Assembly: GCF_023806465.1 (NCBI RefSeq)
Contig: NZ_JAMSLS010000003.1
Span: 1 to 64,000, forward strand
Reading direction: 5' to 3'
Length of the DNA stretch: 64,000 bases
Source of the DNA: Thermomicrobium sp. CFH 73360
Lineage (GTDB): Bacteria > Chloroflexota > Chloroflexia > Thermomicrobiales > Thermomicrobiaceae
Shown: piece by piece, positions 22,440-41,445 of the stretch
Position numbering within the stretch: position 1 is the first letter of the stretch
Layout of the letters: each line of letters starts with the position of its first letter
The notes under the pieces: generated by a model
Database searches by the model: none
Told to the model about the DNA's origin: nothing
The model's input: only the letters and a program-made list of their open reading frames with translations
Made by a program: the position numbers and the translations under genes

Positions 22440-22448
22440 GGAGGGCAG

Positions 22449-22826: not shown

Positions 22827-22843
22827 GATCGACGGAATCGGTG

Positions 22844-22849
22844 TATACT
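22844..22849 (+). promoter_or_regulatory. -10 element TATACT upstream of the structured leader
   Basis: TATACT ends seven bases before a predicted start near 22856. The next 140 bases are a highly structured leader before the Lrp/AsnC gene. A matching -35 is weak. Confidence 0.45.
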
Positions 22850-22855
22850 AGGGCA

Positions 22856-22999
22856 CGCCGCTGACGGAACCGGCGCTCGACTCGCGAGGGGCGAGAACCG
22901 GGAAGTCGAGCAGGCAACGGTGCACTGCTGTACGGACTGAGCACCGAGAGGGTGCGCAAGCTGGTCAATGACGACCAGGGAGTGGGGAGCGCTGGAACA
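22856..22999 (+). ncRNA. Candidate structured 5' leader RNA of the Lrp/AsnC-aminotransferase operon
   Basis: Between the -10 box and the coding start there are three consecutive perfect stems: GCTCGACT/AGTCGAGC (22875-22882 with 22904-22911), CGGTGC/GCACCG (22918-22923 with 22941-22946) and CTGGTC/GACCAG (22961-22966 with 22973-22978). CTCGC/GCGAG (22881-22885 with 22891-22895) could form an alternative to the first. The third stem ends five bases before the GGGGAG ribosome site, so folding could control ribosome access. I cannot match it to a named riboswitch class: no T-box GGN-acceptor bulge, TPP or cobalamin core is visible. Confidence 0.5.
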
Positions 23000-26443: not shown

Positions 26444-27226
26444 ATGACCCCAGTGATTGCCTTCTTTAACCAGAAGGGCGGAACGGCCAAGACGACCAGC
26501 ACTCTCAATGTGGGCGCGGCGTTGGCGGAACGGGGCTGCCGGGTGCTCGCGCTTGACCTTGATCCCCAAGCAAGTCTCACGATGGCGCTCGGGATCGACG
26601 TCGCCCGTTTGAAGAGCTCGGTCTATGACCTCCTCGTGGAGGAGCCACTTCCGCTCGCCGAGGTCGTGGTGCCGACACGCATCGCTGGCCTCGACCTTGT
26701 CCCCAGTCATCCTGACCTCGCTGCAGCCGAGCTGGAGCTCCTCAATGCGCTTGAACGTGAGCGTCGTCTCGCCCACGCACTCGCCGCGGCGGAACCGCTT
26801 CCCTACGACTATGTCTTGATCGATAGCCCCCCTGCCCTCAATATCCTGAGCGTGAACATCCTGGTTGCGGCGACCGCACTCGTCATCCCGATTGAGCCGC
26901 ACCCGCTCTCGCTCATGGTACTGCGCCGCCTCTTCGAGACGGTCAACCGGGTACGCCGCCTCAACCCTCGTCTCACTGTCCTCGGGTTCCTTCCGACGAA
27001 GGTGCACCACTCCTCCCGTCTGGTCGCCGACATGTTAGCCACACTCCAGGAGCGCTTCCCGGAACTTCCGCTCCTGCCGAGCATCCCGCTCTCGGTCAAA
27101 GGGGCTGAGGCGGTGGCGGAGCACACCTCGATCCTGCAGTATCAGCCACGCTCGCCGCTCGCCGCTGCCTACCGCCAGGCGGCAGCAACGATTGCCGAGA
27201 TGGTGGGGAGCGCTAGCCGTGTCTGA
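26444..27226 (+). CDS. parA: ParA/Soj chromosome-partitioning ATPase
   Basis: The 260-residue protein has the deviant Walker A box FFNQKGGTAKTTSTLNVGAA, the switch DLDPQASLT, Walker B YDYVLIDSPPALN and the hydrophobic IPIEPHPLSL strand, all typical of ParA/Soj/MinD ATPases. It should bind DNA as an ATP dimer and move ParB-bound origin DNA. Length and lack of an N-terminal helix-turn-helix fit chromosomal (type Ib-like) ParA. parB overlaps its last eight bases. The ParA-ParB pair suggests either proximity to the replication origin or a large secondary replicon; the window does not show which. Confidence 0.93.
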   Translation: MTPVIAFFNQKGGTAKTTSTLNVGAALAERGCRVLALDLDPQASLTMALGIDVARLKSSVYDLLVEEPLPLAEVVVPTRIAGLDLVPSHPDLAAAELELLNALERERRLAHALAAAEPLPYDYVLIDSPPALNILSVNILVAATALVIPIEPHPLSLMVLRRLFETVNRVRRLNPRLTVLGFLPTKVHHSSRLVADMLATLQERFPELPLLPSIPLSVKGAEAVAEHTSILQYQPRSPLAAAYRQAAATIAEMVGSASRV

Positions 27227-28205
27227 GGCTACTGCCCCGCGGACAACCCGTCGTCGCCGTTTCACGGTCGATGATCTCCTGGCCGATACCTCACCCCAGG
27301 CACGCGGCACGCGCGAGCTCGCCGAGGCACGCGAGATCGCCCTCGATCGCATCGAGCCCGATCCCGACCAACCGCGCCGCAGCTTCGATCCTGAGCGACT
27401 CGAGGAGCTCGCTGCCTCCATTCGTCTCCAAGGTGTGCTCCAACCCATCGCTGTCCGTTACGATACCGTTCGCGACCGCTTTGTGATCATCCACGGAGAG
27501 CGACGCTGGCGGGCTGCTCAGCTGGCTGGCCTCACCACTATTCCAGCAATCGTTCGGGAGGTGAGTGACGAGCAACGGCTGATTCAGCAGCTCATGGAGA
27601 ACATCCTGCGCGAGGATCTCAATGCGCTTGATCGCGCAGCTGCCCTGCGCCGGCTCAAGCAGCAGCTCGGTGATGTTCCATGGGAGCACGTGGCGGAGGC
27701 GGTCGGAATCAAGCGCAGTCGGCTCTTCCAGCTTCTGGCAACCGAAAAGCTCCCCGAGCCAGTGCAAGAGGCGATTCGGAGTGGACGCCTGTCTGAGAAA
27801 CAGACACGGCCGCTCCATGGCCTTCCAGAACCTTTGCAAATTGCTCTCGCGCAACTCGTGGAGCGTGAGCGGCTTGGCCAGGCCGAGATTGAGCGTCTGG
27901 CGCGGGCCCTGCGTGCTGCTCCAGAGCTCGCCACCTTGCCCTCAGCTGAACTCACCGTGCGGCTGCGTGCGCTTGTCCAGGAAGCTCGCCCAGCGCTGGG
28001 TCGTCGGCGACGCAGTGGTCGATCGGCCTCGCCGGTGAGCGAGTTGGTCGCAGCGTTCGAGCGGGTGCGGCAACTCCTAGAGATGATCGACCCGGCAGCG
28101 CTCGACGAGGCCGAGCGGCAGGTTGTTGTCGAGGCTGTGCAGCGACTCGGCCCGGCACTTCGGCGCTGGCACGCGGTGCTCCAGACGAGAGATTCGGTCT
28201 CGTGA
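27219..28205 (+). CDS. parB: ParB/Spo0J centromere-binding protein
   Basis: The 328-residue protein has the N-terminal ParB/Srx CTPase domain (DRIEPDPDQPRRSFDPERL, then GERRWRAAQLAGL, the arginine-rich box II, and MENILREDLNALDRAAAL). A KorB/Spo0J helix-turn-helix follows (VAEAVGIKRSRLFQLLATEK), then a charged linker and a C-terminal dimerisation region. It binds parS and spreads as a clamp, with ParA as partner. The GTG at 27219, nine bases after GGGGAG, is preferred over an in-frame ATG at 27192. The ParA stop codon overlaps the start, so the two are coupled. Confidence 0.93.
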   Translation: MSEATAPRTTRRRRFTVDDLLADTSPQARGTRELAEAREIALDRIEPDPDQPRRSFDPERLEELAASIRLQGVLQPIAVRYDTVRDRFVIIHGERRWRAAQLAGLTTIPAIVREVSDEQRLIQQLMENILREDLNALDRAAALRRLKQQLGDVPWEHVAEAVGIKRSRLFQLLATEKLPEPVQEAIRSGRLSEKQTRPLHGLPEPLQIALAQLVERERLGQAEIERLARALRAAPELATLPSAELTVRLRALVQEARPALGRRRRSGRSASPVSELVAAFERVRQLLEMIDPAALDEAERQVVVEAVQRLGPALRRWHAVLQTRDSVS

Positions 28206-28430: not shown

Positions 28431-29033
28431 TCAGAGGGCTGCTGGATTCATGCGCCGGACAACCCACCAGGCGCCAGGCAGGGCCAGCGTCGCCAGGACG
28501 ATCTTCAGTGCGTCACCCGGCAAGAATGGCACGAGCCCAAGGAGCGGTGCACGCTCGATCCCGACGAATGCAGCGAGCCAGGAAACACCGAAGAGATAGA
28601 TTGCGATGTTGCCGAGTGCCATCGCCACTGCCGTCGCCAATGGTTGGCGATCCCAGCCACGCTCGGCCAGCCAGCCAGTGACAAAGGCAGCAGCGATGAA
28701 GCCGACGAGGTACCCGCCGGTCGGCCCGAGGAGAACGGCGAGTCCAGCCTTCCCACCAGCGAAGACGGGGAGACCAGCCAGCCCTTGTGCCACATAGAGT
28801 GCCATGCTGGCTGCACCACGCCGGCTGCCCAACACCGCGCCGACCAGAAGCACGGCAAAGGTCTGCCCGGTGATCGGCACCGGTGTGAACGGCAGCGGAA
28901 GACTCACCCGGGCCGCGAGCGCCGTCAACAGGCTCCCGGCGACGACCAGCGCCACGTTGGCCAGTAACCGTGACGTTGCGCTCTGCTGCCAGGAGCGCGG
29001 CAACACCGAGTCCGCGAGGACCACTGAAGCCAT
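28431..29033 (-). CDS. bioY: BioY biotin transporter (ECF S component)
   Basis: The 200-residue integral membrane protein has about six helices and the BioY patterns LPFTPVPITGQTFAVLLVGA and GGKAGLAVLLGPTGGYLVGF. It takes up biotin, alone or with an ECF energising module, which is not encoded nearby. It is the last gene of a leftward operon that makes a biotin-dependent carboxylase, so its role is probably to supply that cofactor. AAAGGAG precedes the ATG at 29033; 49 bases separate it from the LamB/YcsF gene. Confidence 0.92.
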   Translation of the reverse strand: MASVVLADSVLPRSWQQSATSRLLANVALVVAGSLLTALAARVSLPLPFTPVPITGQTFAVLLVGAVLGSRRGAASMALYVAQGLAGLPVFAGGKAGLAVLLGPTGGYLVGFIAAAFVTGWLAERGWDRQPLATAVAMALGNIAIYLFGVSWLAAFVGIERAPLLGLVPFLPGDALKIVLATLALPGAWWVVRRMNPAAL

Positions 29034-29082
29034 CGAACTGTTTCTCCTTTCTCTTTGCTGGCCACTCCTTGGCAAAGCGTCC

Positions 29083-29856
29083 TCAGGCCAAGGGAGCAAG
29101 GCCAGTGCCGAGCGGCCGGACGATTACTCCTACCTCCTCAAGGCGCTGGCGCACCCGCTGGGCGATCTCTGGAGCATTTGGCGCATCACCGTGGATGCAA
29201 ATCGTCTCCACCTCGGCGTGCAGGGTCTCACCCTCGATCGTCGGGATACGTCCGTGGACGACGAGCTCGACGGCTCGTCGGGCGACCTCCTCCGGATCCC
29301 AGGCCTGCTTCCGCCGTTCCAGGACGAGCTGTCCGTGCCGGTTGTAGTTCAGGTCGATATATCCCTCACGCGCCATTGGGACCCCAACGGCAGCTGCCAC
29401 GCGTGGTGCGATCTCCCCCATCATCACGAGCGCAATCCCATTGCCGAGCGCTTTGATCGCCCGGCAGAGTGCCTCGCACAGCTCTTCGTTCTGCGAACAC
29501 ATCACGTAGAACGCTCCGTGTGGTTTGACGTGCTGCAACCGTGTACCGGCCGCCTGGGCGAATGCCTGAAGGGCGCCAGCCTGGTAGAGAGTATAGTCAT
29601 AAACCTCCTGTGGTGTAACGTCGATCCGCCGTCGTCCGAAGCCGAGAAGGTCGGGGAAGCCGACGTGTGCGCCGATCCCCACCCCATGCGCGACGGCTAG
29701 TTCCACCGTCTGCCGCATGACGGCAGGATCGCCCGCGTGCCACCCACAGGCGATGTTGGCGGACGTGATCAATGGCATCAACGCCGCGTCGTTCCCCAGT
29801 GTCCAGCGCCCGAAGCTCTCGCCCATGTCGCAGTTGATATCGATGACGCGGGCCAT
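29083..29856 (-). CDS. LamB/YcsF family protein (5-oxoprolinase subunit A type)
   Basis: The 257-residue protein has the family's conserved DINCDMGESFGRW start, SANIACGWHAGDP, GAHVGFPDLLGFGRR, VKPHGAFY and YIDLNYNRHGQLV blocks. The family member PxpA opens the lactam ring of 5-oxoproline together with PxpB and PxpC. Here the two partner subunits downstream-labelled CT are of the urea-carboxylase kind, so the ring or amide acted on may differ from 5-oxoproline. GAGAGGAG precedes the ATG; only two bases separate it from the carboxyltransferase gene at 29859, so it is translated from the same mRNA. Confidence 0.92.
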   Translation of the reverse strand: MARVIDINCDMGESFGRWTLGNDAALMPLITSANIACGWHAGDPAVMRQTVELAVAHGVGIGAHVGFPDLLGFGRRRIDVTPQEVYDYTLYQAGALQAFAQAAGTRLQHVKPHGAFYVMCSQNEELCEALCRAIKALGNGIALVMMGEIAPRVAAAVGVPMAREGYIDLNYNRHGQLVLERRKQAWDPEEVARRAVELVVHGRIPTIEGETLHAEVETICIHGDAPNAPEIAQRVRQRLEEVGVIVRPLGTGLAPLA

Positions 29857-29858
29857 GG

Positions 29859-30851
29859 CTAGCTCCTCTCGAGGTTGCTCTCGTGAATCGTTTCGTCCTG
29901 CTGTTTCAGCAGCGTGATTGCCTCCTCGAGTGTCACTTCCTTGAAGCGGATGTAGCTCCAGCCGGGCACCATCTGGCCGAGCTTCCACATTGCTGCTTTT
30001 GCGACCACGGCGTTACAGATGAATCCACCCAGCGTCGGCCCATCGATGCAGAGAATGATCGGCTGGTCACCACAGACGTTCACGGCGCCGACCGGATAGC
30101 CATTGTCAAGGATGTTCGAGGGGTGGCCACCACCCGCACCACCACTCTCGCGTGCCCACTGCCATTTGTGGATGTCCAGCCGGTATCCCGTGCGGTTCGA
30201 GGCTGCGTCCAGCTTCCAGTGATGAGAGAAGAAGAACGCCATATCCTCAGCCGTCATATAGTCTGGGTCAGCCTGTGGACCGCGTGTTGCTTCTACTTCC
30301 CACACCTCGTTGTAGCCCGAGTAGCTCGGTATCAGCGAGGCGGGGACGCGCCGACCAGCCGCTTGTGCCGGATCAGTCATTGGCTCACCGAGTGGCAGCC
30401 GGTCACCGGCCTGCAACTTGCGCCCCTCGAAGCCACCAATCGCTCCTGGCAGATAGGTTGCCCGACTGCCCAGCACTGGTGGAACGTCGATGCCCCCGCT
30501 GACGGCGAGGTAGGTGCGGAAGCCGGGACCCTGAAGGTAATCGAACTCGAGAAGATCTCCAGCGCGAACCAGGTAGCTTCGCCACAGCTCAAGCGGCTGG
30601 CCGTTCAGGCGTGCCCCCATGTCGGCTCCGCAGACTGCGATCGCGCGCTCGTCCTGGAAAGCGATGACCAGTCCACCGGCCGTAATCTCGAGGCCTGCTG
30701 TGCCAGGGAGGTTCCCGACCAGCACATTGGCGAAGCGGAAGGCGTAGTCATCCATTGGCCCCGCCGGAGCAAAGCCAAGAGAGAGCATGCCGATGCGGCC
30801 TGGATAATCTTGCACGGTTGTCTCAAAACCGCCGTTGCGCACTTCGAGCAT
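29859..30851 (-). CDS. Biotin-dependent carboxyltransferase subunit, AHS2/KipA type, urea-carboxylase-like
   Basis: The 330-residue protein starts with LEVRNGGFETTVQDYPGR and ends its first half with YLAVSGGIDVPPVLGSRATY, standard for the CT_A_B (AHS2, KipA, PxpC) domain. The second half (SNRTGYRLDIH, SGGAGGGHPSNILDNGYP, AVNVCGDQPIILC, DGPTLGGFICN) is, from memory, the pattern of urea carboxylase rather than of PxpC or KipA. It should form the carboxyltransferase site with the AHS1 partner encoded just upstream in the operon. ATG 30851 is preceded by GGGTGGAGTG. An in-frame ATG 13 codons further up has no clear ribosome site. Confidence 0.87.
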   Translation of the reverse strand: MLEVRNGGFETTVQDYPGRIGMLSLGFAPAGPMDDYAFRFANVLVGNLPGTAGLEITAGGLVIAFQDERAIAVCGADMGARLNGQPLELWRSYLVRAGDLLEFDYLQGPGFRTYLAVSGGIDVPPVLGSRATYLPGAIGGFEGRKLQAGDRLPLGEPMTDPAQAAGRRVPASLIPSYSGYNEVWEVEATRGPQADPDYMTAEDMAFFFSHHWKLDAASNRTGYRLDIHKWQWARESGGAGGGHPSNILDNGYPVGAVNVCGDQPIILCIDGPTLGGFICNAVVAKAAMWKLGQMVPGWSYIRFKEVTLEEAITLLKQQDETIHESNLERS

Positions 30852-30886
30852 GATCACTCCACCCTTCCCACGAGTCGCAGCTTGCA

Positions 30887-31879
30887 TCACGGAACCGGAA
30901 CGCGGGCCGCCGCCTCGGCCTGGCGTTGCCGGAACGCCTTCGCTTCGGGGTCCACCTCTTGGAGGAAGCGGAGATAGGCCCCCACGTCGAAGGTCGCTGT
31001 TTCGTCGATGACATACTGGTACGTTCCATCGTAGACGGCCTGGATCAGCGCCTCCAGTTCGTCGTCGGTCACGCGGGGGCGGAAACGGAGTCGGTCACCA
31101 GGGCGCAAGAGTACCGGGCTCTCGCGGAAGGCAGGATTGCGCTGCAGCGGGTCGTAGATCGGCACGGTGTGCCCAAAGATCTGGTATCCGCCAGCCGACT
31201 CAACGGGGTAGATGGCCAAGCAGGGCCCAGCGATCCCTACTGTCCCGGCCGGCGTCCAGTGCCGGGTTGGGTTGTACTTGGGCAGGACGACCGCATAGCG
31301 CGGGTCGAGCGGATAGGCGAAGGGAAGACCGGGGAAGAAACCGAGTGCCGCATTCCACCAATCGGTCGCCATGATGTAGCGAAAGAACTCCTCCTCGTCG
31401 CGAAGTCCGTTGTACATCGCTGCGTACTTCGAGTTCGTGCCGTCGATGATGTTGGGTGCATCCGCTCGCTGGTACTGCACATAGCGCGCGATCGCCTCGC
31501 GCGTCCACTTGTCGTCGAAGGCGATCGGGAGCTCAACGATGCGACTGGGCACCACAAGGTTCTCGAATGGCGGCAGGTGCTCGTATTGGTCTTCGACGAA
31601 ATCGATGAGGTCACGCACGGAGATCTGCCGGCAGTCGTAATTGATCAGGATACTGCGGAGTGCCGGGATGGTCTCGATGAGCCCCGCCGGGCGATTGCGC
31701 TTGATCACATCATCGAGCCCGAGGACGCGGAAGCTCATCGTGAGATCGAAGACCATTTCACCGAACTCGACGAGCAGGAAACTGTCGCCGGCGTTGCGGT
31801 AAACAACGCCGGGCCGCCCATTCCGCTCGGGGAAACGTGCCAGGATGACTCCCGAGGGTTGGGTGACGTGTTCGGTCAT
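30887..31879 (-). CDS. Biotin-dependent carboxyltransferase subunit, AHS1/KipI type, urea-carboxylase-like
   Basis: The 330-residue protein belongs to the CT_C_D (AHS1, KipI, PxpB) family but is about 100 residues longer than KipI or PxpB. Its features (YRNAGDSFLLVEFGEMVFDL, ALRSILINYDCRQ, FDDKWTREAIARYVQ, VLPKYNPTRHWTPAGTVGIA, ESAGGYQIFGHTVPIYDP) follow the corresponding domain of urea carboxylase, including the FDD-W-REAI segment that PxpB lacks. With the AHS2 subunit it should transfer carboxylate from carboxybiotin to an amide-like nitrogen. It lies 35 bases before the AHS2 gene and 33 bases after the biotin carrier gene. Confidence 0.86.
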   Translation of the reverse strand: MTEHVTQPSGVILARFPERNGRPGVVYRNAGDSFLLVEFGEMVFDLTMSFRVLGLDDVIKRNRPAGLIETIPALRSILINYDCRQISVRDLIDFVEDQYEHLPPFENLVVPSRIVELPIAFDDKWTREAIARYVQYQRADAPNIIDGTNSKYAAMYNGLRDEEEFFRYIMATDWWNAALGFFPGLPFAYPLDPRYAVVLPKYNPTRHWTPAGTVGIAGPCLAIYPVESAGGYQIFGHTVPIYDPLQRNPAFRESPVLLRPGDRLRFRPRVTDDELEALIQAVYDGTYQYVIDETATFDVGAYLRFLQEVDPEAKAFRQRQAEAAARVPVP

Positions 31880-31912
31880 GGCTACTCGCTCCTTCCACTC
31901 GCTTTTGGGAGC

Positions 31913-32161
31913 TCAGACCTCGTCGCTGACCACAGCGACCGGCTGCCCGGGCCGGATCGCTTCCTCGTTCTCAACGAGGAAGCGCACCAACTTGCCGCCC
32001 ACGTCAGCAGTGATTTGGTGAAAGGTCTTCATGACGCCGACCAGGCCAATAACCGTCCCCGGGGTGATCGTGTCTCCCTCTTGAACAAAGGGAGCAGCGT
32101 CTGGACTTGGCCGACGGTAGAAGATACCAGGCAACGGTGATTTGATGGTGTGCTCTGCCAT
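31913..32161 (-). CDS. Biotinyl (BCCP-type) carrier domain protein
   Basis: The 82-residue protein is a bare biotinyl/lipoyl domain: IKSPLPGIFYRRPSP, FVQEGDTITPGTVIGLVGVM, then Lys45 in VMKTF as the biotin attachment site, and NEEAIRPGQPVAVV at the end. The usual EAMKM sequence is replaced by GVMKTF. It has no N-terminal Pro/Ala-rich extension as acetyl-CoA carboxylase BCCPs do, which points to a dedicated carrier for this operon's carboxyltransferase. GGGAGGAAAGG precedes the ATG at 32161. Confidence 0.9.
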   Translation of the reverse strand: MAEHTIKSPLPGIFYRRPSPDAAPFVQEGDTITPGTVIGLVGVMKTFHQITADVGGKLVRFLVENEEAIRPGQPVAVVSDEV

Positions 32162-32184: not shown

Positions 32185-33192
32185 TCAACGCTCTCGGTGC
32201 ACCCAATTGTCGATGATGACGGCCAAGATGAGGAGGCCTCCGGTGATGATCATTTGGGTGTAGGTGCTGATCCCCATGATGTCCATCCCGTTCCGAAGCA
32301 TCACGAGGAAAACTGCACCTAAGGCGGCGCCGAACAAGTTCCCCTCGCCACCGCGAATCGAAACGCCACCAAGCACCGCTGCCGCAATCGACTCGAGCGG
32401 GAAACTGGCACCTAAGGTCGGTTCACCAGAGCCGACTCGGGCTGTTAACAGAAGCCCAGTAATGCCCACCAGTACGCCAGCGATTGTGTAGGCCAGGAAC
32501 AGATACAAGCGGACCGCAATGCCGGAGAGTCGCGCCGCTTCCGCGTTGCTGCCGATCGCGTACCAGTACCGGCCGAAGCGAGTCCAGTGCAAGACAACAT
32601 ACATGGCGAGCAGCACAAGGATTGTCACAAGCCACGGCACAGGAATGCTGAGCACCTTTCCCGTGTAGAGCGTGCTTGAAAAGTAGTTGGGAAGGCCAAA
32701 GATTGGGACACCCCGTGACACGTGCAGGGCGAGCCCTGAGACAGCAGTCATCATGGCAAGCGTCACAATAAATGGTGGCACGCGGAACAACGAGACGAAG
32801 AGCCCGTTGAGTGCCCCGATACCCGTCGCCACCGCGATGGCAACCAGGGTTGCCAGGGCTAGCCCAGTTGTCGGTGTATTGGGATGATCGAGGAGCTGAA
32901 GGCCGACGACGATGCTAACGAGCGCAATTGACGAGCCCATTGACAGGTCGAATCCACCGGTCAAAAGCACCAGTGTCTGCGCGACTGACACAATGATGAG
33001 GAAGAGTGCTTGCGTCAGGATGGTCGAAAGGTTCGCGCGCGTGAAAAAGTTCGGCGAAGCGATGGAGAAGAAGATGAGGAGTGCGATCAGCAAGACGGGA
33101 AGCAAACCGAGTTGGTCGAGCATCCCCCGGAGAAACGGGAGACGTCCCACAGCCGCGAACCGCCTGGTCGTCAGCTCACGCGGCGTCGACAC
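32185..33192 (-). CDS. ABC transporter permease, ribose/autoinducer-2 (RbsC) family
   Basis: The 335-residue membrane protein has about 8-10 helices and the RbsC-family blocks LTGGFDLSMGSSIALVSI, LNGLFVSLFRVPPFIVTLA, AIGSNAEAARLSGIAV and ISIRGGEGNLFGAALGA-like GGVSIRGGEGNLFG near the C-terminus. It should form the channel for the ATPase and binding protein encoded immediately upstream. A GTG at 33192 is chosen as start; it overlaps the end of the ATPase gene by 17 bases and has GAGGAGGG upstream. The longer frame to 33294 would lie inside the ATPase gene. Confidence 0.9.
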   Translation of the reverse strand: MSTPRELTTRRFAAVGRLPFLRGMLDQLGLLPVLLIALLIFFSIASPNFFTRANLSTILTQALFLIIVSVAQTLVLLTGGFDLSMGSSIALVSIVVGLQLLDHPNTPTTGLALATLVAIAVATGIGALNGLFVSLFRVPPFIVTLAMMTAVSGLALHVSRGVPIFGLPNYFSSTLYTGKVLSIPVPWLVTILVLLAMYVVLHWTRFGRYWYAIGSNAEAARLSGIAVRLYLFLAYTIAGVLVGITGLLLTARVGSGEPTLGASFPLESIAAAVLGGVSIRGGEGNLFGAALGAVFLVMLRNGMDIMGISTYTQMIITGGLLILAVIIDNWVHRER

Positions 33193-34711
33193 TGCTCTGT
33201 CCGCCCTCCTCTCGCATATGCCCGAAGAAGTACTGGAGCAGCCGCTCTTCGCTCGCTTCTTCGTGAGGAATCGTCGCGACCAGTTCTCCCTCAAACATCA
33301 CCGCGACTCGGTGACAGACGTGCAGAAGTTCCAGCATGTCCGAGGTGATAAAGAGAACCGCTGCTCCTTGCCGGACCAGTTCGTGCAGGAGCTCGTAAAT
33401 CGCGATCTTTGTCCCGACATCGATGCCCTGCGTTGGTTCGTCCATAATGAAGACCTGCGTGTCACGAATCAGCCCTCGTGCCAGCGCAACCTTCTGCTGA
33501 TTTCCCCCGGAGAGGTTGCGGACGCGTGCTGCTGGGTTTGGGGGGACGATGGCGAGGCGCCGGATGTACTCGACGACGGCCCGGCGCTCTTTCCCTTTCT
33601 CCAGGAGCCCGACCAACCGCTCGAAGCGTTCAAGCGCAGCGATTGTCATGTTCTCGAGGACGGAGCGGTTCGTGAGCAGTCCTTCGCCACGACGATCAGC
33701 TGGGAAATACATCACGCCGCGTCGCAGCATGGCATGCGGGCTGAGGTGATCTGCTCGAACCGTCTCGCCGCCGATACGAATCTCACCAGCGGTCAGAGGT
33801 TCGAGCCCGACGAGAGCTCGCCCGAGAAGTCCTTTGCCAGAACCGATCAGCCCTCCGACCCCAAGGATTTCCCCCCTGCGCAGCGTAAGGCTGATATGAC
33901 GGAGTCCATGGACTGAGCACAACCCTCGTACCTCAAGTATGGTCGGAGCATCGGGCGGAACAGGCTGCAGCACTGGATAGATCTGCTCATACTCACGGCC
34001 GGTCATCAGGGTAATCAATCGATCAGTCGTGGTCTCCTGTGCCGCTAGGGTGGCCACATGCCGACCATCACGCATCACCGTTACCCGGTCGGCAATCTCG
34101 TAGAGCTCCTCGAGCCGGTGCGTGATCCAGATGATCCCGACCCCCTGGGCTCGGAGCTCGCGCACGAGTCGGAAGAGGACACCGGTTTCACGATCGGTCA
34201 GTGAGGCTGTCGGTTCATCGAGAATAAGAACTTTCGGGTGTTCGAGTGTCGCCTTGGCGATCTCGACGAGATAGCGTTGCGGCACCGTGAGATCGCGGAC
34301 GCGCGTGGTTGGCGCAATTCCTGCGTCGAAGATACCAAGCTGGGCGAGACTCCGTGCCCGCATCGCTGGCTTACGCAACAGCCCTGGCGCCGTCAGTTCC
34401 CTGCCCAGGAAAATGTTCTCCGCGACGGTCAGAGCTGGAACGAGGCTCAGTTGCTGGAACACGGCCCGGATGCCAAGTTCCTGGGCGTGATGGGGTGACC
34501 GGATCTGTACCGGTCGCCCCTCCAGCTCAATGGTCCCTCCATCCGGGCGGAGTGAACCGGCAAAGATGTTGACCAGCGTCGACTTCCCCGCTCCGTTTTC
34601 GCCAACGAGCGCGTGCACTTCGCCACGACGGAGTTCGAACGACACACGATCCAGCGCCAGCACGCCAGGGAAACGCTTTGTGACCTCGTGTGCCCGCAAG
34701 AGGAAGGTCAT
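33176..34711 (-). CDS. ABC transporter ATP-binding protein, RbsA-like, two nucleotide-binding domains
   Basis: The 511-residue protein is a tandem ATPase. The N half has an intact Walker A (GENGAGKSTLVN), a degenerate signature (LTVPQRYLVEIAKA) and Walker B (LILDEPTASLTD). The C half has a degenerate Walker A (GGLIGSGKGLLG), an intact signature (LSGGNQQKVALARG) and VFIMDEPTQGIDVG. This asymmetry is normal in the sugar importers RbsA, XylG and MglA and in relatives that import nucleosides, autoinducer-2 or branched compounds. ATG 34711 is favoured with CGGAG upstream; a TTG at 34726 overlaps the preceding stop. It is cotranscribed with the TorT-like binding protein and the permease. Confidence 0.93.
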   Translation of the reverse strand: MTFLLRAHEVTKRFPGVLALDRVSFELRRGEVHALVGENGAGKSTLVNIFAGSLRPDGGTIELEGRPVQIRSPHHAQELGIRAVFQQLSLVPALTVAENIFLGRELTAPGLLRKPAMRARSLAQLGIFDAGIAPTTRVRDLTVPQRYLVEIAKATLEHPKVLILDEPTASLTDRETGVLFRLVRELRAQGVGIIWITHRLEELYEIADRVTVMRDGRHVATLAAQETTTDRLITLMTGREYEQIYPVLQPVPPDAPTILEVRGLCSVHGLRHISLTLRRGEILGVGGLIGSGKGLLGRALVGLEPLTAGEIRIGGETVRADHLSPHAMLRRGVMYFPADRRGEGLLTNRSVLENMTIAALERFERLVGLLEKGKERRAVVEYIRRLAIVPPNPAARVRNLSGGNQQKVALARGLIRDTQVFIMDEPTQGIDVGTKIAIYELLHELVRQGAAVLFITSDMLELLHVCHRVAVMFEGELVATIPHEEASEERLLQYFFGHMREEGGQSSVDAA

Positions 34712-34722
34712 CGCTCGCTCCG

Positions 34723-35988
34723 TCAAGACTTCGGTTTCACTGAGAAGACCGGGCGAAAATCACGCGGCCCGAACATATCCTCGTACTTGAAGTCCTTGTA
34801 GTTCTGGGGTGTGACAACCTTAATGATCGGGCCAGCGCGGAACGGAAAGTCGACGCCTGGCTTTTCCCCGTTCAGGATCCGCACCATCATGTCTACCGCC
34901 ATTCGACCCTGGAGGGCAGTGAAGTCAGTTGGTGCAGCAGCGACTTTGCCCGCGGCGATCTTGTCGTACAGCGGTGGGATGATGTAGGTGGACACGATCT
35001 TCGGTTTCTTGGCACGGTTAGCGAGAATATCCGGCGCAGCGTCCGCAGCGACGGCGTTACCCACAATGTAGGTGACGTCTGGGTAAGCGTTTAACGAGTC
35101 CTCGATGAGGGAGACTTGGACATCCTTACCGGTGTCGCCCCATTTCACATCAAGAATCTGCACCTTGCCCGGAACCTTCTCCTCCACGGCCGCCTTGAAG
35201 CCATCGACGGTATCCGGTGCCCACCCCGATCCAGCTGGACCTGGCAGGAAGACGACGGTCACGTTTTGACCGCCCGAGTCTTCAGCAACGAAGGTGCCCG
35301 TGGCATACCCCATGTCATAGAACGAGACGAGCGCCTTCGCCATGATGTCCGGTGCTTGAATATCGTTGATTACTTCAATAACCGGCTTCTTCTTGTTCTT
35401 AACGATGTCTGTGACGAGCTGGTCCTGCGAGGCATAACTAATCGCTGCCAGGATGATTCCCTCGATATCTGCTCGATTGGCAAGGTTCTCGACTTGATTG
35501 ATCTGACCAGTGAGGTCGTTATAGCCTTGAGCAGCAACGAGCTCGATCCCAACGCCGAGAATTTGGGCCTCGTCAACAATCCCATAGTCCACGGCCAGCC
35601 AGTACGGATCTTTCAAATGCGGGAACGAAACACCGATCATGTACGGCTTGTTCGCCTTTGGCCGTGTCCACTTCTCGAACTTGGGGCCCTGTAAGCTTGC
35701 CGCTGGCCGCCCTGGTTGCTTGGTCGAGACGTCATACGTTCCATAATAAGCAGCCACCTCCCAGAGTTCCTCGGTTGCTGCCGGGCTAGCGGCCGGTGCG
35801 GTGGTTGGCGTTGCGGCTGGTGCCGTCGTCGGCTGTGCCCCACCGCTTGCTGGGGTCGGTGTTGTGCCACCGCCGGCACAGGCGGCGAGCAAGCTGCCAG
35901 CTGCGGCTACGGCGCTTCCCATGGTGAGCGTGCGGAGTACGGCCCGCCGCGTGAGGCGAAGGCTGTTGACACCATGTGAGCGATCCAT
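34723..35988 (-). CDS. TorT-like periplasmic substrate-binding lipoprotein (Peripla_BP_4 family)
   Basis: The 421-residue precursor begins with LRLTRRAVLRTL and a hydrophobic stretch ending at the lipobox LLAAC (Cys37), then a Thr/Pro/Ala linker. The mature part has KPYMIGVSFPHLKDPYWLAV, VDYGIVDEAQILGVG and GQINQVENLANRADIEGIIL, which resemble TorT, the trimethylamine-N-oxide-binding sensor protein, more than RbsB. With the RbsA/RbsC-like pair it makes a complete importer. The ligand is unknown; an amine or N-heterocycle would fit both TorT and the neighbouring enzymes. GGAGGGAAG precedes the ATG at 35988. Confidence 0.88.
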   Translation of the reverse strand: MDRSHGVNSLRLTRRAVLRTLTMGSAVAAAGSLLAACAGGGTTPTPASGGAQPTTAPAATPTTAPAASPAATEELWEVAAYYGTYDVSTKQPGRPAASLQGPKFEKWTRPKANKPYMIGVSFPHLKDPYWLAVDYGIVDEAQILGVGIELVAAQGYNDLTGQINQVENLANRADIEGIILAAISYASQDQLVTDIVKNKKKPVIEVINDIQAPDIMAKALVSFYDMGYATGTFVAEDSGGQNVTVVFLPGPAGSGWAPDTVDGFKAAVEEKVPGKVQILDVKWGDTGKDVQVSLIEDSLNAYPDVTYIVGNAVAADAAPDILANRAKKPKIVSTYIIPPLYDKIAAGKVAAAPTDFTALQGRMAVDMMVRILNGEKPGVDFPFRAGPIIKVVTPQNYKDFKYEDMFGPRDFRPVFSVKPKS

Positions 35989-36126
35989 CTCTGGCTTCCC
36001 TCCTCCGAACATCACGACTCTTCATCCGTAGCGGGAGGATCCCCGGCGCACGCACCGGCCGGGGATCCTTCCGCTCTCCCATCCATCCCTTGCCGGCGAA
36101 AATAGACAACTGCGATCGTCACCTCC

Positions 36127-38487
36127 TCACACCCCGAGCTCTCCACCGAGTGCTCGGAGCACGCGCTCTGGCGTCAGCGGCAGCTGCTCGATAGCGCGAC
36201 CAGCTGGCCAGATGGCATCCAGCACTGCACCGGCGACGGAGGCCGGAGTCGCCAGAAGTCCGCCTTCTCCAATCCCTTTGATGCCACCGATCGTCACCGG
36301 CGACGGCGTCTCCAAGTGCTCAATGATGAGTTCAGGAACTTCGGTCGCAGTCGGCAGGGCGTAGGTGACGAAGGTGTCGGTGAGCAGTTGGCCATTCTCG
36401 TCGTAGACCATCGCCTCGAAGAGCGCGCCACCGATTCCCTGTGCGATTGCGCCCATGACTTGCCCTTCGACGATCATCGGGTTGAGCATTGTCCCGCAGT
36501 CTTCAACCGCCACGATCTTGTCCAGATGCACCGTCCCCGTCTCACCGTCCACTTCGCAGACGGTGACGATGCAGCCGTTTGAGTAGGTGGCACGCGGGTC
36601 GTAGAACTTGGTTGCCGAGAGCAACGGCTCTTCACCCTCGGCCCGAACCCGACCATCGAGGTAAGCTGCGAAGGCGACTTGGAAGAGGCTGAGCGAGCGA
36701 TCGGGAGCGCCTCGGACGAAGACGTTCCCCTCCTGAATCTCCAGGTCCTCCGGGGCGACCTCAAGGAGCCGACTGGCGACGCGCAGGACTTTCTCCCGCA
36801 CCTCCTGGGCCGCCAGTGCCACCATTCCGCCACCAATGACCGCACTGCGGCTTGCATAGGTGCCCATACCCCACGGAGCGCGGTCGGTGTCACCGTGCTC
36901 GACAATCACGTCATCGATAGAGACCCCCAGGATTTCAGCGGCAACCTGTGCCAAGGTCGTCTCGTGTCCTTGTCCGTGGCTGTGCACGCTCACGGCCACG
37001 CGGACTTTGCCGGTGGGATCGATAGTCACCGTCGCATTGTCGTGTGACGGGAATGGAAAGCCCGCCTGGAGCGCGATCTCAGAGCCCCAGGCTGTCGGTT
37101 CAACGTAGAGGCTAATGCCAATGCCCAGGTACCGACCCTGCTGTCGGAGCTCCGCTTGCCGTCGCCGCAACTCCTCGTACCCGACGAGTTCCAGCGCTCG
37201 TTCAAGTGATTCCTGGTAACTTCCACTGTCGTAGACCATACCGGTAATCGTGGTGTAGGGGAATTGGTCGCTGGTAATGACGTTGCGGCGTCGGAATTCG
37301 GCTGGATCAAGCCCGAGTTCGCGGGCAATTTCGTCGAAGAACAGTTCTCGCGCCGTCTGCGCGGCTGTCCAACCCACTGCCCGGAAGGCGCCGACCGGGG
37401 CCTTGTTGGTGCAGACGGCGATCACCTCATGCTGGTATGCCTGAATGTCGTAGACGCCGGGAATGATGCCCGCTGCTGCCAGCGGTTCGATAAGGGCACT
37501 TGCCGTGTTGAACGAGTAGGCACCACCGTCACCGATGAGTCGGGCCTTCAGCCCGAGCACCTTCCCGTCGTTGCGCACGGCTGCCTCGAGCTCGATGATC
37601 TGCTCCTTGGCGTGCGTGGCTGCTGCCAGGTTTTCCCGCCGATCCTCTACCCACTTGACTGGTCGACCGAGCACCTTGCCCAGGTAGGCGATTACCACTT
37701 CCTCGGGATAGATCGTCATCTTTTGCCCAAAGCCGCCACCGACTTCTGGCGAGATGACCCGAACCTTGTGCTCAGGAATCCCCAGAAAAAGCGAGAGGAA
37801 GAGCCGCAACATGTGCGGCATCTGCGTCGACGAGTAGAAGGTCAAGTGCCCACTCGACCGCTCATAGACTGAAAGGCAGCCACGTGTCTCCATAGGCGCT
37901 GCGACGAAGCGGTTGGTATGGAAGCGGCGCCGGAAGATCCGGTCGGCCTGGGCGAAAGCGCCATCGACATCGCCGAGTGTTATGACTTTTTGGTAGACCA
38001 CGTTCGTCCCGAGGTCCTCGTGCAGGAGTGGCGCGTCTGGCGCCATTGCGCGCTCAGCATCGGTCACCGCTGGTAGTGGCTCGTAGTCGACCGCGACGAG
38101 TTCGGCCGCGTCCTCGGCAATGTACCGATTTTCCGCCACAACAACCGCCACTGCCTCGCCGACGAACCGCACCTTGTCCTTGGCCAAGACGGTCTGTGGC
38201 GTGGGCTTTAGCCCCTCGATTGGTAAACCGCTGGCCAGAGGAGGTAGCGTCGCGACGTCTTCAGCGGTAAAAACGGCAAGTACTCCTGGGAGTGCCCGGG
38301 CTGCACTCGTGTCGATCCGTCGGATCCGTGCGTGGCCGTACGGTGAGCGCACAAAGGCGGCATGGACAGTGCCTGGAATCTGGAGATCGGCGAGATATCG
38401 CGCCTCTCCAGTCAAAAACCGTGGGTCCTCGACCCGCTTGACGCGAGCTCCCACCCATTTGCCACGCGGCAGAATCTGGAGCGACAT
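36127..38487 (-). CDS. Molybdenum hydroxylase large (molybdopterin-binding) subunit, CoxL/XdhA-like
   Basis: The 786-residue protein has an N-terminal a/b-hammerhead domain (VKRVEDPRFLTGEARYLADL) and the molybdopterin-cytosine-dinucleotide domain with VISPEVGGGFGQKMTIY, AHGQGHETT-like HSHGQGHETTLAQVAAEI, ASRSAVIGGGM and the catalytic Glu in GGIKGIGEGGLL. The active-site loop reads APVGAFRAVGW, so it is neither the CO dehydrogenase form I loop (AYRCSFR) nor the common form II loop (AYRGAGR). It should hydroxylate a carbon next to nitrogen in an N-heterocycle, or oxidise an aldehyde. The 2Fe-2S and FAD subunit genes precede it in the operon. Confidence 0.92.
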   Translation of the reverse strand: MSLQILPRGKWVGARVKRVEDPRFLTGEARYLADLQIPGTVHAAFVRSPYGHARIRRIDTSAARALPGVLAVFTAEDVATLPPLASGLPIEGLKPTPQTVLAKDKVRFVGEAVAVVVAENRYIAEDAAELVAVDYEPLPAVTDAERAMAPDAPLLHEDLGTNVVYQKVITLGDVDGAFAQADRIFRRRFHTNRFVAAPMETRGCLSVYERSSGHLTFYSSTQMPHMLRLFLSLFLGIPEHKVRVISPEVGGGFGQKMTIYPEEVVIAYLGKVLGRPVKWVEDRRENLAAATHAKEQIIELEAAVRNDGKVLGLKARLIGDGGAYSFNTASALIEPLAAAGIIPGVYDIQAYQHEVIAVCTNKAPVGAFRAVGWTAAQTARELFFDEIARELGLDPAEFRRRNVITSDQFPYTTITGMVYDSGSYQESLERALELVGYEELRRRQAELRQQGRYLGIGISLYVEPTAWGSEIALQAGFPFPSHDNATVTIDPTGKVRVAVSVHSHGQGHETTLAQVAAEILGVSIDDVIVEHGDTDRAPWGMGTYASRSAVIGGGMVALAAQEVREKVLRVASRLLEVAPEDLEIQEGNVFVRGAPDRSLSLFQVAFAAYLDGRVRAEGEEPLLSATKFYDPRATYSNGCIVTVCEVDGETGTVHLDKIVAVEDCGTMLNPMIVEGQVMGAIAQGIGGALFEAMVYDENGQLLTDTFVTYALPTATEVPELIIEHLETPSPVTIGGIKGIGEGGLLATPASVAGAVLDAIWPAGRAIEQLPLTPERVLRALGGELGV

Positions 38488-38503: not shown

Positions 38504-38983
38504 TCAGGTATCGGCTCGCTCGTGCCGTGCCGCGAGCTGGACTGCCCGCACGATGTTCTGGTATCCCGTGCAGCGGCAAAGGTTCCCGCTCAACGCCTCA
38601 CGAATCTCCTCCTCACTTGGGTTAGGGTTCTCGGCGAGGAGCGCGACAGCAGTGAGCACCATCCCAGGAGTGCAAAAGCCGCACTGCAAGGCGTGTGCTT
38701 CCCAGAACGCCTCTTGCACCGGATGGAGCGTTCCGTCCGTTGCCAGCCCTTCGATCGTCGTGATGGTAGCTCCGTCAGCCTGGGCGGCCAGCACCAGGCA
38801 GGAGCGGACAGCGGCGCCGTCCCAGAGCACCGTGCAGCTACCGCAAACACCGTGCTCGCAACCCAACTTCGTCCCCGTCAACCCCAGTTCCTCGCGTAGG
38901 AAGTCCGCCAGCGTCATTCGCGGTTCGACCACGGCCGAGATGCGCCGGCCGTTGACGGTCACCGTGATCGGTACGCGCTCCAT
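38504..38983 (-). CDS. Molybdenum hydroxylase small subunit, two [2Fe-2S] clusters (CoxS-like)
   Basis: The 159-residue protein has the plant-ferredoxin-type cluster motif with Cys42, 47, 50 and 62 (GCEHGVCGSCTVLWDG) and the C-terminal four-helix cluster domain with CGFCTPGM and CRCTGYQNI. It passes electrons from the molybdenum centre to the FAD subunit. Start ATG 38983 follows GAAGAGGGG. Sixteen bases separate it from the large subunit gene. Confidence 0.95.
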   Translation of the reverse strand: MERVPITVTVNGRRISAVVEPRMTLADFLREELGLTGTKLGCEHGVCGSCTVLWDGAAVRSCLVLAAQADGATITTIEGLATDGTLHPVQEAFWEAHALQCGFCTPGMVLTAVALLAENPNPSEEEIREALSGNLCRCTGYQNIVRAVQLAARHERADT

Positions 38984-39002
38984 CGTCCACCCCTCTTCCT
39001 GG

Positions 39003-39878
39003 TCATGTCGCCTGCACGCGTTGTGCCGCTGCCTCAAGCGCCCGGCGTACCACAACCGGGACGATTTGCTTGCGGTAGACTGCCGATCCGTGGACGTCGG
39101 AGAGTGGTTCGTCAATCGCTTCCGTCGCTCGCACCGCTGCCTCGTGGAACGTTTCAGCAGTCAAGGGCTGCCCCACCAGCGCCTGCTCTGCCGCTGTTGC
39201 GCGCACCGGGCGTGTTGCAACGCCAAAGAGAGCGATCGCAGCTCGCGCGCAGGTGCCGTCAGCAGCGCGCTCCACCAGTGTCACCGCCCCGGCCAAGGCG
39301 AAGTCTCCGTGTCGGCGCGCAACCTCAGCGATACCCCATCCAGTGGCCGCTGATGGGAGAGGGAAACGCACGGCCGTCAGCAGTTCACCGTCAGCGAGGG
39401 CAGTCGTGAATGGCCCAAGGAAAAACTCGCGCGCCGGGACGGAGCGTTCTCCACCTGGGCCCCGTATGACGAGCTCTGCCTCCAGGGCTAGTGCGACCGC
39501 CGGGTACTCCGCCGATGGATCGGCATGTGCCAGGGAGCCGCCGAGTGTCCCACGGTTGCGGATCGCAGGGTGACCGACGAGCCGCGTGGCAGCAGCCAGG
39601 AGCGGGAGATGGTGAGCGACAAGGGGGTCACGTTCCAGACGTCGTTGCCGTACCATCGCCCCAGCGACGAGTGTTCCATCGTCCAGTGACAACTCGTCCA
39701 ACCCGGCGATCTCTCCAAGGTCGACGAGTAGGGTCGGTCGGGCGAGACGCAGTGCGAGCATCGGAATAAGGCTCTGCCCACCAGCCAGCGGGCGAGCCTC
39801 TGCTCCCTCCCGCGCGAGGATCTCGAGCGCTTCGTGAAGACTCTGCGGCCGCTCGTAGGCGAAGGCCGGCGGTTTCAT
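39003..39878 (-). CDS. Molybdenum hydroxylase FAD-binding medium subunit (CoxM-like)
   Basis: The 291-residue protein has the two FAD-pyrophosphate motifs of the CoxM/XdhB family, LAGGQSLIPMLALRLARP (~33) and NRGTLGGSLAHADPSAEYP (~107), and the CO_deh_flav_C region at the end. It accepts electrons from the iron-sulfur subunit and passes them to NAD+ or a quinone. It is the first gene of the leftward operon; its ATG at 39878 follows GGGAGGGTG. Only 19 bases separate it from the small subunit gene. The gene order FAD, FeS, Mo differs from coxMSL only by continuing into the ABC importer. Confidence 0.95.
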   Translation of the reverse strand: MKPPAFAYERPQSLHEALEILAREGAEARPLAGGQSLIPMLALRLARPTLLVDLGEIAGLDELSLDDGTLVAGAMVRQRRLERDPLVAHHLPLLAAATRLVGHPAIRNRGTLGGSLAHADPSAEYPAVALALEAELVIRGPGGERSVPAREFFLGPFTTALADGELLTAVRFPLPSAATGWGIAEVARRHGDFALAGAVTLVERAADGTCARAAIALFGVATRPVRATAAEQALVGQPLTAETFHEAAVRATEAIDEPLSDVHGSAVYRKQIVPVVVRRALEAAAQRVQAT

Positions 39879-39913
39879 CGTCGCACCCTCCCCTTGCATG
39901 CCGGACCGAAAAA

Positions 39914-40098: not shown

Positions 40099-41445
40099 GT
40101 GTTTCGCAAGGTCCTGATTGCCAACCGCGGTGAGATCGCTCTGCGCGTCATGCGCGCGTGCCGGGAACTCGGGATCCGCACGGTGGCGGTCTACTCGGAG
40201 GCTGACGCACAAGCTCGGCACGTCCGGTATGCTGACGAGGCCCGTTGCATCGGCCCGGCAGCGGCGTCACGGAGTTACCTGAATATCGAGGCGATCATCG
40301 CAGCGGCTCGCGAAACGGGTGCCGAGGCGATCCATCCCGGTTATGGATTCCTCGCAGAGAACGCGGAGTTCGCTCGCGCCTGCCGGGAGGCAGGGATCGT
40401 CTTCATTGGGCCAAGCCCTGAGGCGATCACGCTCATGGGCGACAAGGCCGAGGCTCGAAAGCTTGCCGATTCGGTCGGTGTCCCAGTTGTTCCGGGAACG
40501 CCAGACAAGGTCACGCCAGACGAAGCTCTCACTTTCGCCGACCGGATCGGTTTTCCGCTCATGGTGAAAGCAGCGGCTGGTGGTGGGGGGCGTGGAATTC
40601 GCGTCGTGCGCAACCGCGCAGAACTCGAGCAGGCCTTGGAAGTTGCGGCCCAAGAAGCCCACGCCGCTTTTGGTGACGGTGCGCTCTATCTCGAAAAGTT
40701 CCTGGAGCGACCGCGTCATATCGAGGTGCAAGTGCTCGTCGACCATCATGGTACCGCTCTGCACCTCTTTGAGCGGGAGTGCTCGATTCAACGTCGCCGC
40801 CAAAAGCTCTGGGAAGAGGCTCCTTCCCCGGCGCTCACCCCTGGTCTGCGTGCTCAGATCTGCGAGGCTGCGGTGCGGCTGGCCCGTGCGGCCGGCTACA
40901 CCAATGCTGGGACACTGGAGTTCCTCGTTGATGCTGGCGGCTCCTTCTATTTCTTGGAAATGAACACACGCGTCCAGGTGGAGCACCCTGTCACCGAACT
41001 CGTCACGGGCATCGACATTGTCAAGGAGCAGATCCGGATTGCGGCCGGCGAGCGGTTGCTTTGGCGTCAAGAGGACATCACTGTGCACGGCCATGCGATC
41101 GAGTTCCGGGTGAACGCCGAAGATCCGGCGCTCGGCTTCTTCCCCTCGCCAGGTGTGATCGAACGGATGGAGCTCCCGTCCGGCCCAGGCGTGCGCTGCG
41201 ACTTCGGCTTCGGGCCCGGTGATGAGGTACCACCCTATTACGACTCGCTCATCGGGAAGATCATCGTCTGGGGGCGTGATCGGACCGAGGCGTTGGCTCG
41301 TGGGCGACGAGCCCTCGATGAGTTTGTGGTCGAAGGGATCGCGACAACCGCGCCGTTCCACCGCGCACTGGCCGATGATCCTGCAGTTCTTGCAGCCGCA
41401 TACCATGTCCAGTTCTTGGATGAGCGGCTCGCTCACCCGCAGTGA
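40099..41445 (+). CDS. Biotin carboxylase (AccC-like)
   Basis: The 448-residue protein has the full biotin carboxylase architecture: N-terminal FRKVLIANRGEIALRVMRAC, the ATP-grasp lid MVKAAAGGGGRGIRVV, HIEVQVLVDHHG, ECSIQRRRQK, and the catalytic FLEMNTRVQVEHPVTE. It carboxylates the biotin of a carrier protein using ATP and bicarbonate. The window has only one carrier gene and one carboxyltransferase pair, both in the divergent operon, so this is most likely the missing first component of that enzyme; a housekeeping acetyl-CoA carboxylase role cannot be excluded. GTG start with GAGGGAGG upstream. Confidence 0.93.
   Translation: MFRKVLIANRGEIALRVMRACRELGIRTVAVYSEADAQARHVRYADEARCIGPAAASRSYLNIEAIIAAARETGAEAIHPGYGFLAENAEFARACREAGIVFIGPSPEAITLMGDKAEARKLADSVGVPVVPGTPDKVTPDEALTFADRIGFPLMVKAAAGGGGRGIRVVRNRAELEQALEVAAQEAHAAFGDGALYLEKFLERPRHIEVQVLVDHHGTALHLFERECSIQRRRQKLWEEAPSPALTPGLRAQICEAAVRLARAAGYTNAGTLEFLVDAGGSFYFLEMNTRVQVEHPVTELVTGIDIVKEQIRIAAGERLLWRQEDITVHGHAIEFRVNAEDPALGFFPSPGVIERMELPSGPGVRCDFGFGPGDEVPPYYDSLIGKIIVWGRDRTEALARGRRALDEFVVEGIATTAPFHRALADDPAVLAAAYHVQFLDERLAHPQ

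Follow-up and report, generated by a model that had tools for sequence, protein, structure and literature searches.

A LamB/YcsF-linked biotin-dependent carboxylase of urea-carboxylase type in Thermomicrobium: a candidate lactam-opening system

We analysed 64,000 nucleotides of Thermomicrobium sp. CFH 73360 (contig NZ_JAMSLS010000003.1, positions 1 to 64,000; hereafter the window), in which the interval 29083-32161 encodes two carboxyltransferase (CT) subunits, AHS1 and AHS2, next to a protein of the LamB/YcsF family. The genome to which the window belongs is Thermomicrobium-like, 3.06 Mb in size and 99.7% complete. On the minus strand, from 39899 down to 28431, the genes are arranged in the order molybdenum hydroxylase (FAD, iron-sulphur and molybdopterin subunits), TorT-like substrate-binding protein (SBP), RbsA-type ATPase, RbsC-type permease, biotin carrier, AHS1, AHS2, LamB/YcsF and BioY (Table 1). 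Four of the five enzyme genes are contained in the interval; the fifth, encoding biotin carboxylase, lies 8 kb off and is one of two found in a search of this genome. A first-pass annotation, made from the sequence alone, had reported the CT pair together with LamB/YcsF; to this we add the carrier, a small open reading frame (ORF), and the biotin carboxylase outside the interval. The set of parts of a biotin-dependent N-carboxylase is complete, with biotin carboxylase, a carrier containing a candidate biotinyl-lysine and the CT pair all present, and BioY beside the operon fits a requirement for biotin. In T. roseum DSM 5159, the closest annotated relative, the same cluster is found on a 918-kb plasmid (TRD_RS12630-12685), its five enzyme genes being TRD_RS12635-12650 and TRD_RS12685.

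Table 1. Genes of the cluster and its immediate surroundings in the window
Feature	Coordinates	Strand	Evidence and remarks
BioY biotin transporter substrate component	28431..29099	-	PF02632 152 bits; also adjoins the cluster in L064 and T. roseum
LamB/YcsF, PxpA-like, putative lactam-opening subunit	29083..29856	-	PF03746 310 bits; residues in common with E. coli PxpA
AHS2/CT_A_B carboxyltransferase subunit, urea-carboxylase type	29859..30851	-	PF02626; TIGR02712; tree; N271
AHS1/CT_C_D carboxyltransferase subunit, urea-carboxylase type	30887..31879	-	PF02682; TIGR02712; tree
Biotin carboxyl carrier protein, 82 aa, candidate biotinyl-Lys K45 in GVMKTF	31913..32161	-	PRK07051 120 bits (cut-off 87); PF00364
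ABC permease, RbsC type	32185..33294	-	PF02653; kept with the cluster in relatives
ABC ATPase, RbsA type	33176..34726	-	PF00005 x2
TorT-like periplasmic binding protein	34723..36015	-	PF13407, PRK10936
Molybdenum hydroxylase, molybdopterin subunit	36127..38487	-	PF02738/PF20256; 1t3q_B E 6e-215
Molybdenum hydroxylase, [2Fe-2S] subunit	38504..39115	-	PF01799/PF00111
Molybdenum hydroxylase, FAD subunit	39003..39899	-	PF00941/PF03450
Biotin carboxylase, divergent from the molybdenum-hydroxylase operon	40099..41445	+	PF00289/02786/02785; TIGR00514 646 bits; conserved neighbour in relatives

The CT subunits are of urea-carboxylase type, as the first-pass annotation had proposed. AHS1 is 330 residues long as compared to ~218 in E. 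coli PxpB, in line with its estimate of some 100 additional residues, and the motifs that it named are all present: FDDKWTREAI at residues 121-130 and YNPTRHWTPAGTVG at residues 202-215 of AHS1, and HPSNILDNGYP at residues 256-266 of AHS2. When scored against NCBIfam models, AHS1 reaches 255 bits for urea carboxylase (TIGR02712) versus 68 bits for PxpB, and AHS2 350 bits for TIGR02712 versus 182 bits for PxpC; both remain below the PxpB and PxpC family cut-offs. The top PDB matches are to the urea carboxylase/amidolyase of K. lactis (3va7 and 5i8i, E 4e-46 and 4e-72), those to YbgJ/YbgK being much weaker. The active site should be contained in the AHS1-AHS2 interface. The AHS2 ORF extends to 30890, but the ATG at 30851, which follows a purine-rich stretch, is the likely start. 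Similarly, the adjacent LamB/YcsF ORF as annotated reaches 29988, with a likelier start at the ATG at 29856, which has a purine-rich stretch upstream. LamB/YcsF scores 316 bits against NF003814 (PxpA; cut-off 226) and keeps the E. coli PxpA residues N.D.GE, G.H.GD and H.K.HG.

Trees were computed for 65 AHS1 sequences, 63 AHS2 sequences and a concatenation of 62, including 17 sequences of PxpB/PxpC type (E. coli pxpBC among them; B. subtilis KipI/KipA were left out). In all three trees, the 17 PxpB/PxpC-type sequences are on one side and all others on the other. The separation of the window's sequences from PxpB/PxpC has SH-aLRT support of 100 and 98 in the single trees and 100/100 in the concatenated tree, and the window's CT subunits lie in a clade with fused urea carboxylase (support 97-100). 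A topology uniting the window's group with the PxpB/PxpC clade was rejected by the approximately unbiased test (p-AU 5.7e-7). Thus, the phylogenetic comparison that had been suggested as a check on the first-pass annotation places both subunits, singly and concatenated, on the urea-carboxylase side.

Six groups are distinguished on that side: W, that of the window; D, with gabT within the operon; T, from Nitrososphaerota; P, a proteobacterial and haloarchaeal type whose carrier and carboxylase both go by the name 'acetyl-CoA carboxylase' in annotations; H, from Chloroflexota, in which one locus adjoins a hydantoinase gene; and the fused urea/guanidine carboxylases. In the concatenated tree, the fused group is nested with groups W, D and T (support 100/100), and a single clade of all LamB-linked sequences without the fused group is disfavoured (p-AU 0.012). 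When the tree is rooted on PxpB/PxpC, this arrangement suggests that pairing with LamB may be ancestral and allophanate hydrolase derived. We treat this as a lead, since the p-value is modest, the hypothesis was formulated after the trees and long branches are present.

Loci with CT subunits of the same type occur in Thermomicrobium, Thermalbibacter, Sphaerobacter and other Chloroflexota, and in Rokubacteria, ANGP1, Myxococcota, Pseudomonadota, Actinomycetota, Nitrososphaerota and haloarchaea, and thus span at least seven phyla. LamB/YcsF is present in nearly all loci of sufficient length in groups W, D, T, P and H, and recurs as a neighbour across Chloroflexota, Rokubacteria, Myxococcota, Pseudomonadota, Actinomycetota and haloarchaea, a pattern that, under the check suggested for the first-pass annotation, would support it. 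No LamB/YcsF is found on the 6.6-kb contig of L074; several kb separate it from part of the CT genes in L075 and Natrialba.

The absence of allophanate hydrolase, claimed in the same annotation, also holds: none is present in the cluster, the best match in the genome reaches 216 bits versus a TIGR02713 cut-off of 511, and none was seen adjoining the cluster of any close relative. The gene is linked only to the fused urea/guanidine carboxylase group. Urease, on the other hand, is encoded in the genome (684 bits, above the family cut-off). As to single-chain urea carboxylase, none of 251 Chloroflexota genomes, that of the window included, exceeds the single-chain TIGR02712 cut-off of 1303.85 bits, in a scan that matches mainly biotin-carboxylase domains and is of use only for this cut-off count. 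We conclude that the cluster does not encode a urea carboxylase as defined by its pathway, because the two defining features, the single chain and allophanate hydrolase, are both missing, and that it is not PxpABC, because its CT subunits fall outside that clade; it probably works like both. Compared to K. lactis DUR1,2, its AHS1 and AHS2 are homologous over nearly the whole length and a biotin carboxylase and carrier are likewise present; however, DUR1,2 is one chain of 1,200 residues whereas the window has four separate genes, with LamB/YcsF and no allophanate hydrolase. PxpABC (E. coli ybgJKL) and KipI/KipA share the LamB/YcsF subunit and CT-fold subunits with the cluster, but PxpB is ~110 residues shorter and the E. 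coli locus contains neither biotin carboxylase nor carrier.

A connection to the catabolism of 4-aminobutyrate (GABA) is provided by the relatives. GABA transaminase (GabT) is encoded in 10 of 41 LamB-type loci, distributed over three clades of the tree, in 0 of 9 PxpB loci and in 0 of 7 fused carboxylase loci; these counts apply a threshold of at least 52% identity to one of three reference GabTs in a non-random sample of loci, and the ten include close relatives, three of them having supplied the references. In L064 (ANGP1), L071 (Myxococcota) and L070 (a proteobacterial metagenome-assembled genome, MAG), the transaminase gene comes first, followed by SBP, ATPase, permease and AHS1-AHS2-YcsF-biotin carboxylase, with the carrier gene between YcsF and biotin carboxylase in L071. 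GabT was identified with TIGR00700 (cut-off 507 bits) in L064 and L071 (549 and 566 bits) and by 53% identity in L070. Group D (L132-L136) has the order SBP-ATPase-permease-YcsF-GabT-AHS1-AHS2-carrier-biotin carboxylase, with GabT scores of 550 and 562 bits in L134 and L136. Glutamate dehydrogenase is added to the operon neighbourhood in L132 and L135, and L135 also encodes a protein matching the 4-hydroxybutyryl-CoA dehydratase of GABA fermentation (1u8v, E 6e-145). Within group P, Ruegeria sp. TM1040 and Aestuarium zhoushanense have gabT and a succinate-semialdehyde dehydrogenase gene beside the cluster, in two different arrangements. In addition, a flavoprotein gene follows biotin carboxylase in group D (L133:5640-6728, L134:12793-13887 and L135:13082-14206), the L135 copy matching NADPH dehydrogenase/OYE families.

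The window's SBP is 67-69% identical to those of L064, L070 and L071 and 63-64% identical to those of group D, as compared to 37-40% for TorT proteins beside TorS-type sensors. It is on the basis of this 63-69% identity to SBPs of gabT operons that a GABA end product is carried over to the window. 'TorT' is used here as a homology name only, because some other bacterial TorT-like proteins adjoin sensor kinases. The importer is not of urea-transporter type. On a plasmid of Rhodococcus rhodochrous BX2 (L156:9788-17232), genes for a TorT-like SBP, an ATPase and a permease are grouped with those for succinate-semialdehyde dehydrogenase and an amidohydrolase; no carboxylase gene is among them, and a similar ligand is perhaps opened there by another route.

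We then considered the residues that may set specificity, taking Asn1330 of K. lactis to be the position that tells urea from guanidine carboxylases. By alignment count, Asn is found at 1330 of 5i8i, in a column in which all seven bacterial fused sequences have Asp. In a review that gives no residue number, one active-site position is described as Asp in guanidine carboxylases and Asn in urea carboxylases (PMC12186494). The corresponding residue of the window is N271 of AHS2, encoded at 30078-30080 and counted from the ORF start at 30890. Asn is found in this column in groups W, D and T and Gln in P, H and PxpC; both side chains would seem better suited to a neutral amide than to a guanidinium. 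Guanidine carboxylase (the bacterial fused uca with UAAP1/UAAP2 and atzF), which shares the CT family, was ruled out by Asn in place of Asp together with the absence of any guanidine riboswitch match to Rfam within the window and of UAAP1/2-like genes in the cluster. In AHS1, at F175, P177, F181, P194 and T199 (domain numbering), the LamB-linked enzymes tend to PxpB-like residues, while fused urea carboxylase has V, L, V, T and A. These residues, near the PLDPR motif, appear in keeping with a lactam-like rather than a urea-like pocket.

The molybdopterin subunit of the hydroxylase has quinoline 2-oxidoreductase (1t3q) as its best solved relative, with 719 bits, followed by CoxL (621), 6-hydroxypseudooxynicotine dehydrogenase (490) and xanthine dehydrogenase (163). 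Xanthine dehydrogenase proper was ruled out on these scores. Quinoline 2-oxidoreductase oxidises the ring carbon next to nitrogen, the product being a ring lactam. The presence of such an enzyme beside a lactam opener suggests a two-step sequence, in which the lactam is made and then opened. Next to their clusters, Rubrobacter and Diaphorobacter likewise encode hydroxylases of this superfamily (41% and 32% identical to that of the window, respectively), and given these identities such a linkage may have evolved on more than one occasion. Elsewhere in the window, a block at 21285-24881 encodes an agmatinase-like ureohydrolase, an Lrp-type regulator and a class III aminotransferase; T. roseum too has this block near its cluster, and related genera have it in part. 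As no link with the cluster was seen outside Thermomicrobium and its family, we do not count it as part of the cluster, although one may speculate that it supplies putrescine-derived 1-pyrroline to the hydroxylase.

Together, these observations lead us to propose, with a probability of about 0.55, that the cluster encodes an ATP- and bicarbonate-driven lactamase, i.e. a four-subunit biotin-dependent N-carboxylase working with LamB/YcsF to convert a lactam to an omega-amino acid. Substrate, order of steps and role of the hydroxylase are read from gene context. In this model, the TorT-like ABC importer would take up the substrate, while in this bacterial family the molybdenum hydroxylase would probably form the lactam by oxidising the carbon adjoining nitrogen in a cyclic imine or N-heterocycle. 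Biotin carboxylase would load the carrier with CO2 at the expense of ATP and bicarbonate, and the CT pair would pass it to the amide nitrogen of the imported or internally made lactam. The resulting N-carboxy-lactam would be an activated acyl donor, like allophanate, to which LamB/YcsF would add water, thereby opening the ring, and the carbamate product would lose CO2 to yield the omega-amino acid, most likely GABA from 2-pyrrolidinone. The chemical logic would be that of urea amidolyase with a lactam replacing urea. Thus, the 'different amide or ureide' to which the first-pass annotation had pointed stands as a direction and, judged from gene context, may be narrowed to a lactam yielding GABA or a close omega-amino acid.

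The nearest precedent appears to be lamA/lamB of Aspergillus nidulans, compared with the cluster through published genetics: it combines the LamB family, lactam use and co-regulation with GABA transaminase, AmdR controlling gatA, gabA, lamA and lamB (PMC8016842). YcsF has been related to the LamB of 2-pyrrolidinone use (PMC3412718). In Trichoderma, a urea-carboxylase gene adjoins LamB and NADPH dehydrogenase (PMC8675399), and group D operons resemble this locus in having an NADPH-dehydrogenase-type flavoprotein next door. The bacterial clusters differ from these fungal systems in that their subunits are unfused and that they contain ABC transporters and molybdenum hydroxylases. The ATP-dependent caprolactamase/hydantoinase of the HyuA/OplA family, in which lactam opening is driven by ATP (PMC8453981), is a functional analogue made of unrelated proteins without biotin. 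No paper on such a bacterial system was found in the open-licence literature searched. Bacterial enzymes of this kind are not known to have been assigned the opening of small ring amides such as 2-pyrrolidinone to GABA.

Several observations weigh against this proposal or its details. The proteobacterial group with gabTD has Gln and not Asn at the specificity position, so that the pockets differ from that of the window although the same product is argued for both. In the stretches read, no GabT was seen around the cluster in Chloroflexota members, and the two class III aminotransferases of the genome itself (409 and 383 bits) are below the GabT cut-off; GABA is therefore carried over to the window from relatives, which we regard as reasonable. 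Some Rhizobiaceae relatives have other transporters, and substrates thus probably vary. The hydroxylase linkage may be analogous, the window and Diaphorobacter enzymes being only 32% identical. Finally, PxpABC opens 5-oxoproline with, to our knowledge, no involvement of biotin, and the role given to carboxylation in the LamB step thus follows the urea-amidolyase analogy. Conversion of 2-pyrrolidinone to GABA in this particular organism is put forward tentatively.

Three other readings were weighed. In one, urea is the substrate and LamB/YcsF a non-homologous substitute for the allophanate hydrolase of urea carboxylase systems, the urea to be broken down coming for example from the agmatinase-like enzyme (~21285-22439). 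The Asn shared with K. lactis urea carboxylase would agree with it, as would the ureohydrolase nearby, which at 157 bits is just below the agmatinase cut-off of 174 and is called 'agmatinase' in T. roseum. Yet urea is an unlikely substrate given the urease, the lack of allophanate hydrolase and an importer of another type; moreover, the GABA transaminase, succinate-semialdehyde dehydrogenase and 4-hydroxybutyryl-CoA dehydratase of relatives would be left unexplained, and the AHS1 residues near PLDPR are PxpB-like, not those of fused urea carboxylase. We consider this reading quite improbable. Hardly more probable is a biotin-using 5-oxoprolinase, in which 5-oxo-L-proline would be carboxylated and opened to glutamate: the PxpA-like LamB/YcsF, the opening of a gamma-lactam by PxpABC and glutamate dehydrogenase beside some clusters would all fit, but the same three GABA-related enzymes indicate GABA and not glutamate, the CT subunits are outside PxpB/PxpC, and E. 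coli pxpABC has no dedicated biotin carboxylase, carrier or BioY.

Unlikely, but credible, is a third reading in which another lactam or a cyclic ureide is opened (hydantoin, imidazolinone, a hydroxylated N-heterocycle or a polyamine-derived lactam) and the GABA link is limited to relatives. Consistent with this, relatives adjoin hydantoinase/oxoprolinase genes (e.g. L047), an 'allantoin permease' or a glutamine-synthetase-family/aminotransferase/aldehyde-dehydrogenase set, and the window itself combines a quinoline-oxidoreductase-like hydroxylase with the lack of gabT nearby. However, its SBP is 63-69% identical to those of two kinds of gabT operon, which points to the same ligand or one much like it.

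A broader reading, held tentatively as a whole, is that these loci constitute a widespread, so far unassigned bacterial and archaeal class of biotin-dependent lactamases in which stable gamma-lactams, once N-carboxylated, become open to hydrolysis by LamB/YcsF, that Thermomicrobia couple to it a lactam-making molybdenum hydroxylase, and that the fused urea/guanidine carboxylases are a late branch in which the lactam opener was exchanged for allophanate hydrolase. If true, these operons would be a route for breaking very stable lactams, among them 2-pyrrolidinone, a common solvent and the nylon-4 monomer. Urea and guanidine carboxylases would gain an ancestor, and the LamB/YcsF family, named for a lactam-use gene, a chemical mechanism. 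The database labels 'acetyl-CoA carboxylase', 'allophanate hydrolase subunit 1', '5-oxoprolinase subunit PxpA' and 'TMAO reductase system protein TorT' given to such operons are all probably misleading. The reading can be tested in culturable carriers such as Ruegeria sp. TM1040, Azospirillum lipoferum and Thermomicrobium roseum.

A few further observations concern individual loci. L047, L048 and L049 (Chloroflexota) have a divergent AHS1/AHS2 pair of urea-carboxylase type, with LamB/YcsF where visible; at L047, a HyuA/oxoprolinase-family gene is also present, so that two ring-opening systems that depend on ATP but are unrelated to each other are neighbours there. In the Nitrososphaerota MAGs L074 and L075, AHS1 is near acyl-CoA dehydrogenase, MaoC, CitE-like and aldehyde dehydrogenase genes, and in L075 also near a class III aminotransferase. 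In one Chloroflexota MAG (L042:3114-5810 and L073:13058-15712), biotin carboxylase reads into a glucose/sorbosone dehydrogenase (GSDH) domain and Biotin_carb_C is shortened, owing to either a fusion or an assembly frameshift. In the window, parA and parB genes adjoin the cluster at 26444-28205, and the contig may be plasmid-derived, since T. roseum carries the same block on its 918-kb plasmid. On the other side, at 41648-44567, two neighbouring genes jointly resemble a split phosphoenolpyruvate (PEP) synthase/rifampicin-phosphotransferase-like protein (PPDK_N and PEP-utilizers domains).

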